Part shown: positions 27,099-38,212 of the stretch, piece after piece
Numbering within the stretch: the stretch's first letter is position 1
How the letters are laid out: each line of letters opens with the position of its first letter
Assembly (NCBI GenBank): GCA_903900845.1
Contig: CAIUOU010000201.1
Coordinates: forward strand, 1-48,596
Origin: an uncultured Opitutia bacterium
Lineage (GTDB): Bacteria > Verrucomicrobiota > Verrucomicrobiia > Opitutales > Opitutaceae
Length of the DNA stretch: 48,596 nt
Direction: 5' to 3'
Notes under the pieces: model-generated
The model's database searches: none
What the model was told of the DNA's origin: nothing
Seen by the model: the letters and a program-made list of their open reading frames with translations, nothing else
Translations under genes and position numbers: made by a program

Positions 27099-27674
27099 GT
27101 GAAGGATCCAGGGGCCACGAACCCGTTGACACCGGCGCGCGGCGGCCGCGACATTCGCGTGGTGAGCAAGACGCAGGACCACGAAAAATTCCGGAGCTTC
27201 CTCGCCCGGAAGGGCCTGCGCGCGACTAACCAGCGTCTCGCCATCCTCGACGCCGCGCTCGCGCAGCCCGACCACTTCACCGCCGAGCAACTCCTCGGCT
27301 ACGCGCGCTCCATCGACGACTCCGTCGCCCGCGCCACGGTTTACCGCACGCTGCCGATCATGACGGAAAGCGCGCTCCTGCGGGAAGTGGACATCGGCGC
27401 CGGCGAAAAATACTACCGCGCGAATCGAGCCGGGCAGGATTCGCAGGTTGCCCAGGTGGTGTGCCTCGATTGCGACCGCATCTTCGAAATCGGCGCGCCC
27501 TTCATGTCGTGGTACGGCAACTCCGTTTCCACCAAGCTGGGTCTTACTCCCGTCAGCCAGCGTCTCCAAGTGAGCGCGCGCTGCGACGCGCTGCGCGACA
27601 CCGCCGCCTGCCCGCGTCGACCGGCCTCCAGTTCCTCTCATGCCCAAGTCAAAGGACCGCAGCGTCGAGTTTGA
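27099..27674 (+). CDS. Fur-family regulator lacking the usual metal-sensing histidines
   Basis: 191 residues from a GTG; a GTG at 27162 ([10 protein letters not shown]) gives ~170 and fits the family length better. The winged helix is clear ([32 protein letters not shown]), and the first structural cysteine pair is present (CLDC, 122-125). In Fur the residues just before this pair read HHDH; here they read QVAQ. The later HRL position is QRL, and the second cysteine pair is spread out (Cys162, Cys171) instead of CxxC. DNA binding should be kept, but classic Fe/Zn sensing looks lost. Its end overlaps the next gene by 35 bp. Confidence 0.8.
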
Positions 27675-29669: not shown

Positions 29670-30731
29670 ATGACCAATCACCCCGAGCTGTCCCTGCGCG
29701 AGAAAATCGGCCAGATGCTGCTCGTCGGTTTCCGCGGCGCCACGCCCGCCGATTGCGCCCTCGCGGTGCGCGACATCCGGGAGCATCATGTTGGCGGCGT
29801 CATCCTCTTCGATCAGGACGTCGCCGACCCGACCCTCGGCCGCCGCAACATCCACTCGCCCGCCCAGGTGCGCGAGCTGCTCGTCTTCCTGCAGGCGCAG
29901 TCCCGCGTGCCGCTCCTGACCGCGGTCGACCAGGAGGGCGGCCGCGTCAACCGGCTGAAGCCCGACTACGGATTCCCGGCCAGCATCTCCCACGAGGAAC
30001 TCGGCCGCCTCGACGACGAACGCGAGACCCAACATCACGCGGCGACCACCGCCGACACGCTGAAAGCCGCCGGCTTCAACCTGAACCTAGCGCCGGTGGT
30101 CGATCTCGACGCCAACCCCGACAATCCGATCATCCACGGCAAGCGGCGGAGTTTCTCCGCGGATCCCGAAGTCGTCGCGCGGCATGCGGCAGCATTTGTC
30201 GGCGCGCACCGCGCGCGCGGCGTGCTGACCTGCGCGAAGCACTTCCCGGGGCACGGCAGCGCACGCGGCGACACACACCTCGGCCTTGTCGACGTCACGG
30301 CAAGTTGGACCGAACGGGAATTGGAACCCTTTCGCACCCTCGCCGCCGCGGGGCTCGCCGACATGATCATGACGGCGCATGTCTTCAACGCGCGGCTCGA
30401 TGCCGACCGGCCGGCGACCCTTTCGGCCAAAGTGGTCACGGGCATCCTGCGTGAACGCCTCGGCTTCGACGGCGTCGTGGTAAGCGACGACATGGAAATG
30501 CGCGCGATCTCGAGCCGCTGGGGCCTGGAGGAATCGGTTCCCGCCGCGGTGGAGGCCGGAATCGACCTGCTCTGTTTCGGCAACAACCTCACCTACGACC
30601 CCGACATCGCGCCGCGAGCCGCCGAAATCCTGGAGCGCGCCGTGACCTCGGGACGCATCCCGCTTTCGCGGATCGACACTTCACACCGCCGTCTAATGGC
30701 GCTGAAAAGCCGCGCCGGCCTCATCGCCTGA
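29670..30731 (+). CDS. nagZ: Beta-N-acetylhexosaminidase NagZ (glycoside hydrolase 3)
   Basis: 353 residues. It cleaves GlcNAc from GlcNAc-anhydroMurNAc or GlcNAc-MurNAc peptides. The NagZ signatures are KHFPGHG (190-196), the Asp-His dyad GDTH (Asp201, His203) on the mobile loop, and VSDDMEM with nucleophile Asp273. DQEGGRVNRL is also typical. No signal peptide, so it acts in the cytoplasm as in Gram-negative recycling. It starts 13 bp before the AmpG-like gene, in one operon. Confidence 0.93.
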   Translation: MTNHPELSLREKIGQMLLVGFRGATPADCALAVRDIREHHVGGVILFDQDVADPTLGRRNIHSPAQVRELLVFLQAQSRVPLLTAVDQEGGRVNRLKPDYGFPASISHEELGRLDDERETQHHAATTADTLKAAGFNLNLAPVVDLDANPDNPIIHGKRRSFSADPEVVARHAAAFVGAHRARGVLTCAKHFPGHGSARGDTHLGLVDVTASWTERELEPFRTLAAAGLADMIMTAHVFNARLDADRPATLSAKVVTGILRERLGFDGVVVSDDMEMRAISSRWGLEESVPAAVEAGIDLLCFGNNLTYDPDIAPRAAEILERAVTSGRIPLSRIDTSHRRLMALKSRAGLIA

Positions 30732-30744
30732 ACCCAGCCAACCC

Positions 30745-32028
30745 ATGAGCAACGCGACCGCGCCCGCCACCGCCCGCCCCTGGGCGTGGATCCCCACGCT
30801 CTATTTCGCTCAGGGCATCCCTTACGTCGTGGTGATGACGCTTTCGACGGTCGTCTACAAGAACCTCGGGATATCGAACACCGACATCGCGCTGTACACC
30901 AGCTGGCTCTACCTGCCCTGGGTGATCAAGCCGCTGTGGTCGCCACTGGTCGATATGTTCGGGACCAAACGGCAGTGGATTGTGACACTGCAGTTTGTGA
31001 TCGGCTTGGCGTTTGCCCTCGTCGCGCTGACCCTGCCCGGGCCTGAGTTCTTCCGTTTATCACTGGCGGTGTTCTGGCTGATGGCGTTCGCCTCGGCGAC
31101 GCACGACATCGCCGCCGACGGGTTCTACCTACTGGCGCTTCCCCAGGGCCAGCAGTCGGCCTTTGTCGGCGTACGGAGCACTTTCTACCGCCTCGCCAGC
31201 CTGACGGCCCAAGGCGGCCTCGTTTATCTCGCGGGGCTCTGGCAGGAGAAAACCGGGAGTGTGGTGCAGGCGTGGGGGATGGTGTTCGGCCTCTTGGCGG
31301 CGGTCTTTGTCGCGGTCGGGCTCCATCATGCGTTCGCGTTGCCGCGCCCGGCGGTGGACCGGCCGACTGCCGGCGGCGACGGGTTGATAAGGGAGTTTGT
31401 CGGGGTGTTCGCGGCCTTCCTGCGGAAGCCCGGCATTTTCCTGATTCTGGCTTTCCTGCTGCTCTACCGCCTCGGCGAGGCACAGGCGCTGAAACTGCTT
31501 TCCCCATTCCTGCTGGATGCGCGCGACAAGGGCGGGCTGGGCCTCAGCACGCGGGAAGTCGGCGTCGTTTACGGCACGGTGGGCATCATCGCGCTCACGG
31601 TCGGAGGTTTGCTCGGCGGCTGGGCGATCTCCCGCCGCGGACTCAAGGCGATGCTGTGGCCGATGATCCTTGCGACGCACGTGCCGGTGGCGGCTTTTCT
31701 CCTCCTCGCGCTTTACCAACCCACCAGCCTCTGGCTCATCGGCGGCGCCCTCGCCGTGGAGCAATTCGGCTACGGCTTCGGTTTCACCGCCTACATGCTC
31801 TACATGATGCTGGTCGCCGATGGTCCCCACAAGACGGCCCACTACGCGATCTACACCGGCTTCATGGCCCTCGGCATGATGCTGCCCGGCATGGCCGCCG
31901 GCTGGATCGAGGACCAGGTCGGCTACGTGAAGTTCTTCGTCTGGGTGCTGGCCTGCACCGTTCCGTCGTTCATCGTCGTCGCCCGGCTCAAGATCGACCC
32001 GGAGTTCGGACGCAGGACGAAGCCCTGA
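30745..32028 (+). CDS. AmpG-like muropeptide permease (MFS)
   Basis: 427 residues with about 12 membrane helices. The N-terminus WAWIPTLYFAQGIPYVVVMT and the early LPWVIKPLWSPLVDMFGTKR match AmpG and related SLC33/MFS carriers. AmpG imports GlcNAc-anhydroMurNAc peptides. The 13-bp gap to nagZ, which acts on this very substrate, supports the assignment. The protein is shorter than E. coli AmpG (491 residues, 14 helices), so the substrate might be a simpler sugar. It is convergent with namZ, with 2 bp between stops. Confidence 0.82.
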   Translation: MSNATAPATARPWAWIPTLYFAQGIPYVVVMTLSTVVYKNLGISNTDIALYTSWLYLPWVIKPLWSPLVDMFGTKRQWIVTLQFVIGLAFALVALTLPGPEFFRLSLAVFWLMAFASATHDIAADGFYLLALPQGQQSAFVGVRSTFYRLASLTAQGGLVYLAGLWQEKTGSVVQAWGMVFGLLAAVFVAVGLHHAFALPRPAVDRPTAGGDGLIREFVGVFAAFLRKPGIFLILAFLLLYRLGEAQALKLLSPFLLDARDKGGLGLSTREVGVVYGTVGIIALTVGGLLGGWAISRRGLKAMLWPMILATHVPVAAFLLLALYQPTSLWLIGGALAVEQFGYGFGFTAYMLYMMLVADGPHKTAHYAIYTGFMALGMMLPGMAAGWIEDQVGYVKFFVWVLACTVPSFIVVARLKIDPEFGRRTKP

Positions 32029-32030
32029 GG

Positions 32031-33266
32031 TCAGTACAACAGGTACGGTTTCCGCTCCCGGCGAAACGCCTCTTCGCCGCCGCGCCACCCCGCGATGATC
32101 GCCGCCACCGGGCGCCCCGCCTGCAGCGCCTCCCGCGTCGCGGCGGTGCCGTTCACCTTGTCAAACATGTCGAATTTCTTCCCGGCGTTCACCGCCTCCG
32201 CGAAAAGATCCCGCCCCGCCACCTTCCGCAGCGCCTCGAGCGCGTGGTAATTGATCGCGGTCAGCGGAGCACCCGCGGGATCCGTGAAGTGCAGCTGCAC
32301 GCCGCCGATAACCTCATCCTTGAACGCGCCGTAGTACGGTTTGTAGGTGAGCGGACGGAAATGCACGCCGGCGATTCCGCGCGCATTCAGGTCGGCGGCC
32401 AAGGCGTGGGGATCAACCTTAGGCACCGCGACCGTCTGGAACGGCAAAGTGTACCCAACCCCGATGCTCACCCCGCCGATTTCCCCGAGCATTCCGGTTG
32501 CTACTTGGAAAAGCGGCGACTCGCCGTGCGGAATGTGCGGCGAGGCCGGCACCCAAGGCAGGCCGGTCTCGCGCCACAACATGTCGCGCCGCCATCCCCG
32601 CAGCGGGATGACCGTCAGCTTGCACGGCTTCCGGATCCACCCGCGGCCGTTGATCATCCGCGCCAGTTCTCCGCTGGTCATGCCGTACACGTAGGGCACG
32701 TCCCACTGGCTCACGAATGAGCGCAGGCGCTCGTCCAGTAACCGTGGTCCCTCGATCCGGTTCCCACCTAGCGGATTCGGCCGGTCGAGCACCATGAACT
32801 CCACCCCCGCCTCGGCGCAGGCCTCCATCGCGAGGCCCAGCGTGCTGATGAAGGTGTAGGAGCGGGCACCCGTGTCCTGCAGGTCGTAAACCAACACGTC
32901 GAGGCCCTGCAGCATCGCGGCCGTGGGCTTGCGGGTGGCGCCGTAAAGCGAGTGCACCGGCAGACCAGTGCGGACGTCGGTGCGGCTCTCAACCTTGTCG
33001 CCCGCCGGGACGTCGCCGTAGATGCCGTGCTCCGGACCGAACAGCGCCACGAGTTTCACGCCGGGCGCGCGTCGCAAGACCTCGATCGTGCTCTCCAGTC
33101 GCCGGTTCACGCCGGAGGGGTTGGTGATGAGCCCCACGCGCCGCCCGGCGAGGTCGCGAAACCCGCCTTCCGCCAACACCTCGCTGCCCAGCAGGACGCG
33201 CGGTGTGTCCGCGGCGACGGCGCCGAACGCCGGGCTCAAAAGCGCGGCTAGCAAAAATATTTTCAT
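32031..33266 (-). CDS. namZ: Exo-beta-N-acetylmuramidase NamZ (DUF1343, GH171)
   Basis: 411 residues with a signal peptide (MKIFLLAALLSPAFGAVAAD). The family blocks are plain: RVGLITNPSGVNR, ALFGPEHGIYGD, VYDLQDTGARSYTFISTLGL, LDRPNPLGG, and YGMTSGELARMIN. NamZ removes terminal MurNAc from peptidoglycan chains, as shown for the Bacillus subtilis enzyme, which is clustered with nagZ and an amidase as here. The predicted location is the periplasm. The longer frame lacks the signal and is rejected. It is divergent from the amidase gene across 101 bp. Confidence 0.92.
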   Translation of the reverse strand: MKIFLLAALLSPAFGAVAADTPRVLLGSEVLAEGGFRDLAGRRVGLITNPSGVNRRLESTIEVLRRAPGVKLVALFGPEHGIYGDVPAGDKVESRTDVRTGLPVHSLYGATRKPTAAMLQGLDVLVYDLQDTGARSYTFISTLGLAMEACAEAGVEFMVLDRPNPLGGNRIEGPRLLDERLRSFVSQWDVPYVYGMTSGELARMINGRGWIRKPCKLTVIPLRGWRRDMLWRETGLPWVPASPHIPHGESPLFQVATGMLGEIGGVSIGVGYTLPFQTVAVPKVDPHALAADLNARGIAGVHFRPLTYKPYYGAFKDEVIGGVQLHFTDPAGAPLTAINYHALEALRKVAGRDLFAEAVNAGKKFDMFDKVNGTAATREALQAGRPVAAIIAGWRGGEEAFRRERKPYLLY

Positions 33267-33367
33267 GCCCGACGGAAAGACGGCATGAGGTTCGGAGCCA
33301 GTCGTTTCCCGCGCGGCTTTCACGATTGAGCCCGCGCTCGCTCCGCCAGCATCGTCTCAAAATCCCC

Positions 33368-34402
33368 ATGCCAAACGCCCAATTCACCGCGCTCATCGCC
33401 GGTCCCGTTCTTCTGCTGCTCGCCGGCTGCGTCAGCGTCCAGCCCGGCACTCCCGCCAAGCGCGTGGGCGACGAGATCATCGTCGCGGGGCAGCTGTTCC
33501 ACACCGGCACACGAGTCGTCACCTGGATGGATCCGGGCGGTTACGACGCCTACCGCGTGGAGCGGCGCTTCTCCCCTTACGCCGCCTCGAGCTGGGAAAA
33601 GACGCCCGACGCGGCGAAGAATCTCGGTACGCCGAACCGGTACGGCATTCGCGCCGCCGCGCTCTCCCCGGCGGAGATCGAGCGGGTGCGCGGCGGCGGC
33701 TGGGACCTGCCATTGCTCCAGCGCGTCGTCGACCAATTCGTCCTGCACTACGACGTCTGCGGCATCAGCAAATCCTGCTTCAACGTCCTCCACGACCACC
33801 GCGGGCTCAGCGTCCACTTCATGTTGGATATCGACGGCACGATCTACCAGACGCTCGACCTGAAGGAGCGCGCCCGCCACGCCACGATCTCCAACGACCG
33901 CTCGATCGGCATCGAGATCGCGAACATGGGCGCGTACCCGCCCAAGGACACCAAGGTCCTCGACGAATGGTACCCGAAGGACGCCGCCGGTCGCCCCTAC
34001 ATCCGCATCCCGGAGCGACTCGGCGACCCGATGCTCCAGGTCGCGGGCTTCGTCGGCCGCCCCGCCCGTGATGAACGCGTCGCGGGCAACGTGCAGCGCA
34101 CGGATCTGGTCCAGCACGACCTCACCCCCGAGCAGTACGCCGCGCTGGAGAAACTCACCGCCGCCCTCTGCCGCGTTTTCCCCAAGATGACCTGCGACTA
34201 TCCGCGCGACGCCGCGGGGAAACTGGTCACCACGAAACTGCCCGACGAGACGTGGAAGGCCTACGCCGGGGTGCTCGGCCACTATCACGTGCAGACCAAC
34301 AAAATCGACCCGGGCCCGGCGCTCGATTGGGACCGCGTCATCCGCGGCGCCCGTCGCGCGCTTGGACTCGACACGCGGACCAAGGACGTGAACGGCCGCT
34401 GA
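33368..34402 (+). CDS. AmpD-like N-acetylmuramoyl-L-alanine amidase lipoprotein
   Basis: 344 residues. Lipobox LLAGC (Cys21) predicts a lipid anchor. The amidase_2 zinc site is visible: VLHYDVCG, later LSVHFMLDIDGTIYQTLD, RHATISNDRSIGIEIANMG, then GHYHVQTNKIDPGPALDWDR with His and Asp ligands. The enzyme cuts stem peptides from MurNAc. It is longer than AmpD (183 residues), with an N-terminal extension and an insertion around 215-250. It resembles outer-membrane AmiD more than cytoplasmic AmpD. Confidence 0.9.
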   Translation: MPNAQFTALIAGPVLLLLAGCVSVQPGTPAKRVGDEIIVAGQLFHTGTRVVTWMDPGGYDAYRVERRFSPYAASSWEKTPDAAKNLGTPNRYGIRAAALSPAEIERVRGGGWDLPLLQRVVDQFVLHYDVCGISKSCFNVLHDHRGLSVHFMLDIDGTIYQTLDLKERARHATISNDRSIGIEIANMGAYPPKDTKVLDEWYPKDAAGRPYIRIPERLGDPMLQVAGFVGRPARDERVAGNVQRTDLVQHDLTPEQYAALEKLTAALCRVFPKMTCDYPRDAAGKLVTTKLPDETWKAYAGVLGHYHVQTNKIDPGPALDWDRVIRGARRALGLDTRTKDVNGR

Positions 34403-37210: not shown

Positions 37211-38212
37211 TCACGGCACGACCCGCACCGACATGCCCACCCACGACATCCCCAGCAGCGTCTGCGCATCCCAGTTGGCGAGCCGGAAGCACCCGTGCGA
37301 CTCCGTTATCCCGACCTTGGAGGGATCCGGCGTGCCGTGGATGCCGTAACCCGGCCGGTCCAATCCCAGCCACGCGACCCCCACCGGGTTGTTGGGTCCC
37401 GGCGGAAGGATGAGCTTCCGGCCCAACTCCCGAGCCTCCGCCGACTCGGGGAACACGGCGGGATCAAAAGTGTAGTCAGGGTTGGACACGATCACCATCA
37501 CCCTCAGGTCCCCGACGGGCCGCTTTTCGACGCGGCGCGCTATGCTGGTGGGGAAGTGGGCCAGCAGCCGCCCGTCGGCCGAGAAAACCTCCAGCACCTT
37601 TTCCGCCAGCCGGATCTCCAGAAACGCGGCCCGTTCGGTTTTCGCGACGAACTCCGCCGCAGGTGCGGCAAAAACCGTTGCGGGCGTGATCGCGTCCCAA
37701 TCCAAACCCGGGTTGATGCGACGCAGGAAACCGGCCCCCGCGCGGAACCGCTCCGCCGCCAACTCCAGCGCGGACTCGTGGGCGAGCGCGGATTGCCGCG
37801 ATTTCCCGAGCCAGGTGGGCTCCAAAGGTTGCAGACCCGCCAGGTCCTGCGGGGCCAGCGATGCCCATACCAGGGCAGGCGCATCGAGCTCGAGAGAACG
37901 CGCGGTGCTCTCGTCGAGTTGCCCCGACTCGGACAAGCCCTGCGCGCGTTGAAAGGCCCGCAGCGCGGCGGAGGATTGCGGCCCGCGAATGCCGTCGATC
38001 GATCCGCCGGAGAAACCCCTTCGCGTCAGCTCCACCTGCACCTCGAGCCAAGTGACCGCCGGTCGGGGATAGACATCGACGTCGCCCAGCAATGAAGTGG
38101 CGGCCCGCGGCAACGGCTGCTCAGCGGGAGACGCCTCGCCCGGAACAGCCGCCCGCAACGCGAACGGAAAAAGCAAGGCCGGCACGAACCGGCGGAATGC
38201 GGCGCGACGCAT
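37211..38212 (-). CDS. L,D-transpeptidase (YkuD) with peptidoglycan-binding and LysM-like domains
   Basis: 333 residues, signal peptide at the N-terminus. A peptidoglycan-binding repeat lies at about 53-110 (VQVELTRRGFSGGSIDGIRG). A LysM-like stretch lies at about 145-185 (FRAGAGFLRRINPGLDWDAI). The YkuD catalytic domain follows with His292 in GIHGTPD and the SHGCFRL motif (His306, Cys308). The enzyme would form 3-3 cross-links or attach proteins to peptidoglycan. Cys, both His and Arg are intact. Confidence 0.92.
   Translation of the reverse strand: MRRAAFRRFVPALLFPFALRAAVPGEASPAEQPLPRAATSLLGDVDVYPRPAVTWLEVQVELTRRGFSGGSIDGIRGPQSSAALRAFQRAQGLSESGQLDESTARSLELDAPALVWASLAPQDLAGLQPLEPTWLGKSRQSALAHESALELAAERFRAGAGFLRRINPGLDWDAITPATVFAAPAAEFVAKTERAAFLEIRLAEKVLEVFSADGRLLAHFPTSIARRVEKRPVGDLRVMVIVSNPDYTFDPAVFPESAEARELGRKLILPPGPNNPVGVAWLGLDRPGYGIHGTPDPSKVGITESHGCFRLANWDAQTLLGMSWVGMSVRVVP

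Follow-up and report, generated by a model that had tools for sequence, protein, structure and literature searches.

The window, meaning the whole 48,596-nt stretch of DNA analyzed here, comes from an Opitutaceae-like bacterium and carries four neighboring genes between positions 29670 and 34402:

29670-30731, plus strand: nagZ-like gene, encoding a NagZ-like GH3 beta-N-acetylglucosaminidase
30745-32028, plus strand: gene for an AmpG-like MFS permease (TIGR00901 and PDB sequence matches)
32031-33266 (stop codon included), minus strand: namZ, encoding a predicted NamZ exo-beta-N-acetylmuramidase, GH171
33368-34402, plus strand: gene for a predicted lipoprotein N-acetylmuramoyl-L-alanine amidase (Amidase_2, AmpD/AmpDh2/AmiD fold)

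All four open reading frames are present at these coordinates, and a profile check matched each to the family given in the earlier note, with domain scores above the model cut-offs. Third-position GC lies between 0.84 and 0.89 across the four genes. The nagZ-like gene is separated from the permease gene by 13 nt, while namZ lies tail to tail with the permease gene (stop codons 2 nt apart) and diverges from the amidase gene across 101 nt. Because namZ sits on the minus strand, which the earlier note does not mention, the four genes do not form a single operon; a scan for promoters and terminators gave no signal above chance. The gene upstream of nagZ in the window is gcvT, and a Fur-family gene is found near the locus at 27099-27674.

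The NagZ-like protein matches Glyco_hydro_3 at 227.4 bits (cut-off 27) and the NCBIfam model PRK05337 at 186.5 bits, below its cut-off of 207; its top PDB match is a GH3 beta-N-acetylglucosaminidase (2.4e-57). It bears KHFPGHGSARGDTH and SDD motifs, corresponding to the KHFPGH...D-H motif and the SDD pattern, both active-site motifs; among the cluster relatives, window included, the first is found in 19 of 19 sequences and the second in 18 of 19. Since no signal peptide was seen, the protein is inferred to be cytoplasmic. The NamZ protein, in which a signal peptide is present as judged by eye, contains NamZ_N (275 bits, cut-off 26.9) and NamZ_C (118.9 bits, cut-off 25) and matches PDB 4k05 over residues 23-411 (1.6e-119). 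It is a predicted exo-muramidase that would remove MurNAc from non-reducing ends. The permease exceeds the MFS_1 cut-off (67.2 versus 33.4 bits), and its best named model is TIGR00901 (AmpG) at 186.5 bits; given that this score is under the curated cut-off of 350, the protein is labeled AmpG-like rather than AmpG.

For the amidase, position 33368 is the more likely start than the listed ORF start at 33203, because a signal peptide with an LAGC lipobox begins there (judged by eye). The protein scores 68.7 bits against Amidase_2 (cut-off 26) and falls under the cut-off of its best named NCBIfam model. Residues H127, E183, H305, K312, and D314 are invariant in 27 of 27 aligned sequences, and H127, H305, and D314, presumably the metal ligands, align with the AmpDh2 motifs. 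The predicted structure (pLDDT 84) superimposes on AmpD with Z 14.8 and an rmsd of 2.2 over 154 residues. Fold scores are largely tied, with LysC/PlyP100 endolysins at 13.3, AmpDh2 at 13.2, and AmiD at 12.8, and the AmpD-like fold is common to endolysins and PGRPs as well. The outer-membrane amidases AmiD and AmpDh2 (PDB 2bh7, 3d2z, 4bol, 4bj4) share the lipobox, the Amidase_2 fold, and the metal-site motifs. Unlike them, the family of the window amidase features an N-terminal part of its own as well as a long insertion separating E183 from H305, and its conservation across Verrucomicrobiota and Planctomycetota is strong.

The synteny comparison suggested in the earlier note bears out the grouping. 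The complete set, in identical order and on the same strands, occurs in 5 of the 65 named amidase loci (L038, L039, L040, L041, and L055), and the grouping therefore exceeds chance. In L038 the gene caller missed nagZ, the permease gene, and namZ, all three of which are revealed by tblastn; thus, neighbor counts based on gene calling are lower bounds.

A survey of 120 genomes of the family extends this linkage, with Fisher tests that treat the genomes as unrelated and so ignore kinship. Permease orthologs were defined by at least 60% identity (plus G054, where an insertion splits the match) and NamZ orthologs by at least 67%, the next best being 47%; for MurQ, matches of at least 200 bits were kept, which retains 13 of 18 genomes. 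AnmK occurs in 14 genomes, all of which contain the amidase, within 15 kb in 11; 13 of the 14 also have the permease, within 15 kb in 10. Permease and amidase co-occur in 30 genomes (within 15 kb in 21); in 5 of 5 genomes that have it, the window-type NamZ lies no more than 15 kb from each of them. Both AnmK and MurQ are absent from 17 of the 30 genomes with the permease-amidase pair, which is therefore independent of those enzymes. HMM searches place AnmK, MurQ, a GHL10 hydrolase, and an epimerase-like gene in clusters of the relatives. Outside the family, the 44 Planctomycetota amidase loci have MurQ nearby in 10 cases, GHL10 in 5 others, and NamZ in 1 other, with marker genes absent from 28; they are likewise absent from the other 10 verrucomicrobial loci (L046-L054 and L066). 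The named loci and the family genomes are not independent sets, as they share contigs (L042 is G043:C103, L044 is G093:C8, and L045 is G068:C278); L045 was accordingly dropped from the tree.

In the permease tree, the window clade, with 8 members, groups as sister to another that includes three GHL10-type entries (100/99). Label A in this tree comprises 11 loci that have NamZ, or have NagZ and lack GHL10; no namZ is visible in L102 (contig end) or L104, and the namZ of L103 is some 10 kb distant. Judged by gene content, the window version is a variant in which an ortholog-specific NamZ occupies the place where AnmK, MurQ, and GHL10 are found in some relatives. A simple functional swap of NamZ for AnmK and MurQ is disfavored, as other NamZ paralogs are found in 115 of the 120 genomes, some adjoining AnmK or MurQ. 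Three families occur in at least 3 of the 13 window-type loci and nowhere else in the set, namely a TonB-dependent receptor (5), a permease with an insertion (3), and an uncharacterized 697-aa protein (3). They were considered as candidates for a MurNAc sink, and there is no convincing sugar enzyme among them.

According to the earlier note, a genome lacking downstream MurNAc catabolism genes would speak against a salvage role, and this is largely the situation found. In the window's genome (205 contigs, 95.98% complete), neither MurQ nor AnmK gave a match at E 0.001, whereas the controls matched (E. coli and others for MurQ, five genomes for AnmK). MupG was found in 0 of 12 genomes searched, this one included (control matches in L. 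lactis only), and GHL10 was not found in the window's genome. A search for APH-type kinases in five genomes at E 1e-10 returned a single one here, which is NahK-like (PDB match 1.5e-85), and hence no AmgK candidate; those of G026 and G043 appear similar on visual inspection. The neighborhoods of the other NamZ loci in this genome contain no obvious MurNAc gene by eye. On the GlcNAc side, a NahK-NagB-PIG-L fusion is encoded elsewhere in the genome. Mpl, which the earlier note had proposed to look for, yields a match of 381.6 bits, just under the cut-off of 388.7; across the family, 92 of the 120 genomes match at 1e-100 and 12 exceed the cut-off. Since such matches are wide but mostly under cut-off, peptide reuse is graded as plausible. 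With the tested MurNAc enzymes absent, the cell, going by the tested routes, probably recovers GlcNAc and perhaps peptide.

Taken together, the locus is probably a peptidoglycan-fragment salvage module that would strip, import, and split wall fragments, because the same genes are linked to AnmK, MurQ, GHL10, and the epimerase-like gene in relatives. The wall-salvage role put forward in the earlier note is upheld by this linkage, but not as regards a MurNAc sink, as none was found. By family membership, the lipoprotein amidase would strip stem peptides outside the cytoplasm, and NamZ, in the periplasm, would trim off the MurNAc at non-reducing ends. The AmpG-like permease would then bring in peptide-poor GlcNAc-(anhydro)MurNAc, and NagZ would cleave the imported disaccharide in the cytoplasm, freeing GlcNAc that the NahK-NagB-PIG-L fusion could take up. 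Some relatives have a fuller version that adds GHL10, AnmK, MurQ, and the epimerase-like enzyme. It is possible, though doubtful, that the permease-amidase core without AnmK and MurQ (17 of 30), joined by NamZ in the window type, represents a second kind of wall-sugar salvage, in which MurNAc would be split off and then discarded or consumed by a not-yet-recognized enzyme.

Other explanations differ in how well they accommodate these data. It is very improbable that the product of the MFS gene transports something unrelated, for example a siderophore, and that its neighbors are coincidental: the missed TIGR00901 cut-off, the weak RhtX/FptX match (73.2 bits), the nearby Fur-family gene, and the 10 amidase-free genomes among the 40 with the permease would fit, but the AmpG model scores far higher, the permease's only PDB sequence matches are four AmpG or muropeptide transporters (best 2.8e-27), and, counting only genomes that have both genes, the permease is linked with AnmK in 10 of 13 and with the amidase in 21 of 30. 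Improbable, too, is a complete MurNAc-recycling pathway, as implied by the earlier note, whose MurNAc genes fall in sequence missing from the assembly or have diverged beyond the models. The fragmented assembly would allow for it, as would G006, a genome of the same genus with AnmK, MurQ, and the cluster. Against it, MurQ and AnmK are also absent from G026, G043, and G054, which have the same NamZ and are 98-100% complete, no MupG emerged from the 12 genomes, and the MurQ and AnmK genes of relatives lie in or near the cluster, a place occupied here by other genes.

The module might serve less to recycle the cell's own wall than to feed on fragments from the walls of other bacteria, a serious possibility that we lean slightly against. 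Five window-type loci encode a TonB-dependent receptor (mutual identity approximately 75-95%) directly upstream of nagZ, with nagB further upstream in two, and the permease is patchy, with orthologs in 40 of 120 family genomes and no homolog at E 1e-20 in 2 of 5 genomes of the window's genus. However, gcvT occupies the upstream position in the window, no ORF above 900 aa within 20001-42000 matches that receptor at 1e-5, and patchy loss of own-wall recycling would give the same pattern.

The preferred reading, a salvage module, has parallels in known systems. The murQRP-amiE-nagZ-namZ cluster of Bacillus subtilis has a secreted NagZ, with MurNAc uptake via a PTS and MurQ. The window likewise keeps NagZ, amidase, and NamZ genes together; unlike in B. 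subtilis, its NagZ has no visible signal peptide and MurQ was not found. The ybbC gene of Tannerella forsythia belongs to the NamZ family. For that species, PMC5388701 describes ampG followed by ybbC in a single transcript with murTKQ, so that the mixing of both schemes in one place, pointed out in the earlier note, is not new. Its AmpG takes in GlcNAc-MurNAc as well as GlcNAc-anhMurNAc, according to PMC7670621. These papers offer a likeness in the adjoining AmpG-like permease and YbbC/NamZ genes, and a further one in the strong amidase activity and the import of peptide-free disaccharides that they propose. T. forsythia has MurT, MurK, and MurQ in the transcript, whereas MurQ, AnmK, and MupG were not found in the window's genome, and the window cluster includes a NagZ-like gene and a lipoprotein amidase gene of its own and carries namZ on the opposite strand. 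The AmpG-NagZ-AmpD route of E. coli and Caulobacter, as outlined in PMC13046382, resembles the window in its AmpG-type import, cytoplasmic NagZ, and AmpD-fold amidase, and AnmK is found in the window's relatives. The differences lie in the window amidase being a predicted lipoprotein outside the cytoplasm, in the added NamZ, and in AnmK, MurQ, and AmgK not being found in the window's genome. That source calls peptidoglycan recycling outside gammaproteobacteria incompletely characterized, and no description of such a cluster in Verrucomicrobiota was found among titles and abstract openings.

The analysis exposes a gap, namely genomes in which NamZ, permease, NagZ, and amidase are retained although no MurNAc sink is known. 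It also connects a single family of lipoprotein amidases with genes for MurNAc catabolism in both Verrucomicrobiota and Planctomycetota. The locus and its relatives display alternative gene sets arranged around one permease-amidase core.

The earlier note had named four genes in the window, and all four open reading frames were found at these positions, each passing its Pfam cut-off:

29670-30731, + strand, nagZ-like GH3 gene
30745-32028, + strand, AmpG-like MFS permease gene
32031-33266, - strand, namZ
33368-34402, + strand, gene of an AmiD-like Amidase_2 lipoprotein

A gap of 13 nt separates nagZ from the permease gene, which lies tail to tail with namZ, the stop codons being 2 nt apart, and namZ and the amidase gene diverge across 101 nt. 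The cluster is flanked by gcvT and a gene for a PVC-type protein with a cytochrome domain. While the Pfam cut-offs were passed, the best named NCBIfam models scored below their curated cut-offs for the permease (186.5 vs 350 bits), NagZ (186.5 vs 207) and the amidase (37.6 vs 143); hence the names AmpG-like, NagZ-like and AmiD-like. Signal peptides and lipoboxes were assigned by eye. About 3 kb from the amidase, a second wall-acting protein, a YkuD L,D-transpeptidase with a PG_binding_1 domain, is encoded at 37211-38212 (- strand).

Of 19 cluster relatives compared, all share the KHFPGHGSARGDTH motif of the NagZ-like protein, and 18 share its SDD pattern. NamZ matches PDB entry 4k05 across residues 23-411 of 411, and the permease has only four matches among PDB sequences, all AmpG or muropeptide transporters. 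In the amidase, H127, E183, H305, K312 and D314 are kept in 27/27 aligned sequences from Verrucomicrobiota and Planctomycetota; by alignment, H127, H305 and D314 match the AmpDh2 motifs LHY, GH and DPG. Its structure model (mean pLDDT 84) resembles AmpD (Z 14.8, rmsd 2.2, 154 residues), AmpDh2 (Z 13.2, rmsd 2.2, 137 residues) and AmiD (Z 12.8, rmsd 2.9, 139 residues). Since endolysins tie with this group (Z 13.3) and PGRPs follow at about 11, the fold indicates the superfamily, not the substrate.

The cluster and its variants recur in relatives; the earlier note had proposed comparing synteny in other Opitutaceae. Scanning named genomes for the amidase gave 65 loci, five of which (L038-L041, L055) hold all four genes in the same order and strands; NamZ accompanies the amidase in L036, L037 and L042, with the permease additionally in L037. 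A survey of 120 family genomes, own genome included, found permease orthologs in 40, the amidase in 37, AnmK in 14 (8 of 49 genera), MurQ, counted only at ≥200 bits, in 13, and the window's NamZ ortholog in five. Permease and amidase occur together in 30 genomes, ≤15 kb apart in 21. The amidase is present in 14/14 AnmK genomes (≤15 kb away in 11) and the permease in 13/14 (≤15 kb in 10); Fisher tests, which ignore kinship among genomes, gave 9e-9 for AnmK with amidase and 2e-13 for permease with amidase. All five NamZ orthologs lie ≤15 kb from both permease and amidase. One in-frame stop each was reported in the G074 amidase (G074:C12:527990-528964) and the G037 permease (G037:C37:55069-56334).

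A fuller arrangement recurs in loci L105 and L109, in the order AnmK, MurQ, GHL10, permease, amidase, NagZ, uncharacterised protein and enolase-fold epimerase. In L105, AnmK scored 465.8 bits, GHL10 220.9 and MurQ 311.7 (TIGR00274, cut-off 302), while the top models for the epimerase, N-acetyl-D-Glu racemase DgcA and L-Ala-D/L-Glu epimerase, all stayed under cut-off. The 556-aa protein (L105:4951-6618) has no match in Pfam or NCBIfam; several Opitutaceae clusters have it at the same place, with NagZ on one side and the epimerase-like gene on the other. DigH is a GHL10 protein. According to an extract of PMC12288456, E. coli DigH cuts denuded glycan ends, so yielding anhydro products for AmpG import. 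In G006, a genome of the window's genus, GHL10, permease, amidase, NamZ, epimerase and NagZ are clustered with AnmK and MurQ alongside. A third arrangement joins permease and amidase to a threonine dehydratase-like gene (labelled by eye). Near one AnmK/GHL10-type cluster lies a gene for a heparan-glucosaminide N-acetyltransferase-like membrane protein (L111:2815-3987), with a similar-looking gene, by eye, in L162. Among 44 Planctomycetota amidase loci, flanks of ≤10 kb hold MurQ in 10, GHL10 in five others, NamZ in one other and no marker genes in 28; ten further verrucomicrobial loci (L046-L054, L066) also hold no marker genes.

The window's permease, placed in a tree of 44 such sequences, groups with window-type rows, eight in all (support 96/96). 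A further four rows, three of them GHL10-type, are sister to these, and the clade of 12 is supported at 100/99; deeper forks are less supported (about 82-94). The permeases of L039 (L039:6745-8616), L055 and L137 form a separate lineage in which an insertion of about 190 residues follows residue ~167 and probably makes up a periplasmic domain; window-type loci therefore need two changes on the tree.

The earlier note had looked to murQ and anmK for downstream MurNAc catabolism. Neither is present in the own genome (205 contigs, completeness rating 95.98%), and both are absent from four of the five genomes carrying this NamZ (own genome G000, G026, G043, G054, G006). MupG was not found in any of 12 genomes searched; GHL10 was not found in G000 or G026, and is weak in G054 and distant in G043. 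A simple swap of NamZ for AnmK and MurQ is countered by NamZ paralogs in 115/120 family genomes, including those with AnmK/MurQ, and by the 17 of 30 permease-amidase genomes that carry neither enzyme. Thus NamZ may have been added at the cluster position instead of replacing other genes, and the lack of MurNAc genes is not peculiar to the window type. The own genome has four NamZ loci (contigs C201, C26, C195, C5), the C26 copy within a frame of about 900 aa.

As the earlier note held, AmpG-like and NamZ genes do stand together; the mixture as such is not new, because an extract of PMC5388701 reports AmpG next to YbbC in a single transcript in 2017. In titles and abstract openings, no description was found of such Opitutaceae-type clusters, of the amidase link spanning Verrucomicrobiota and Planctomycetota, or of the missing MurNAc branch.

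The observations are the gene content, the linkage, the sites that are conserved and the absence of the tested enzymes; the most likely order of action is inferred. The amidase would take off stem peptides outside the cytoplasm, NamZ would release terminal MurNAc, and the permease would bring in the peptide-poor disaccharide. Such a permease can import GlcNAc-MurNAc lacking the anhydro end, as an extract on T. forsythia AmpG states (PMC7670621). Inside, NagZ would free GlcNAc for use by NahK/NagB. The own genome has a single APH-family kinase at 1e-10, NahK-like (N-acetylhexosamine 1-kinase structures, 1.5e-85); it shares one 1034-aa frame with NagB and a weak PIG-L match (L156:7448-10549, + strand, own contig C71), an unusual fusion of GlcNAc enzymes. 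The freed tripeptide may return via an Mpl-like ligase: mpl, also raised earlier, has a match of 381.6 bits, under the cut-off of 388.7. In five window-type loci the gene immediately upstream of nagZ encodes a TonB receptor, a hint that those relatives take up fragments from outside; the window has gcvT at this place.
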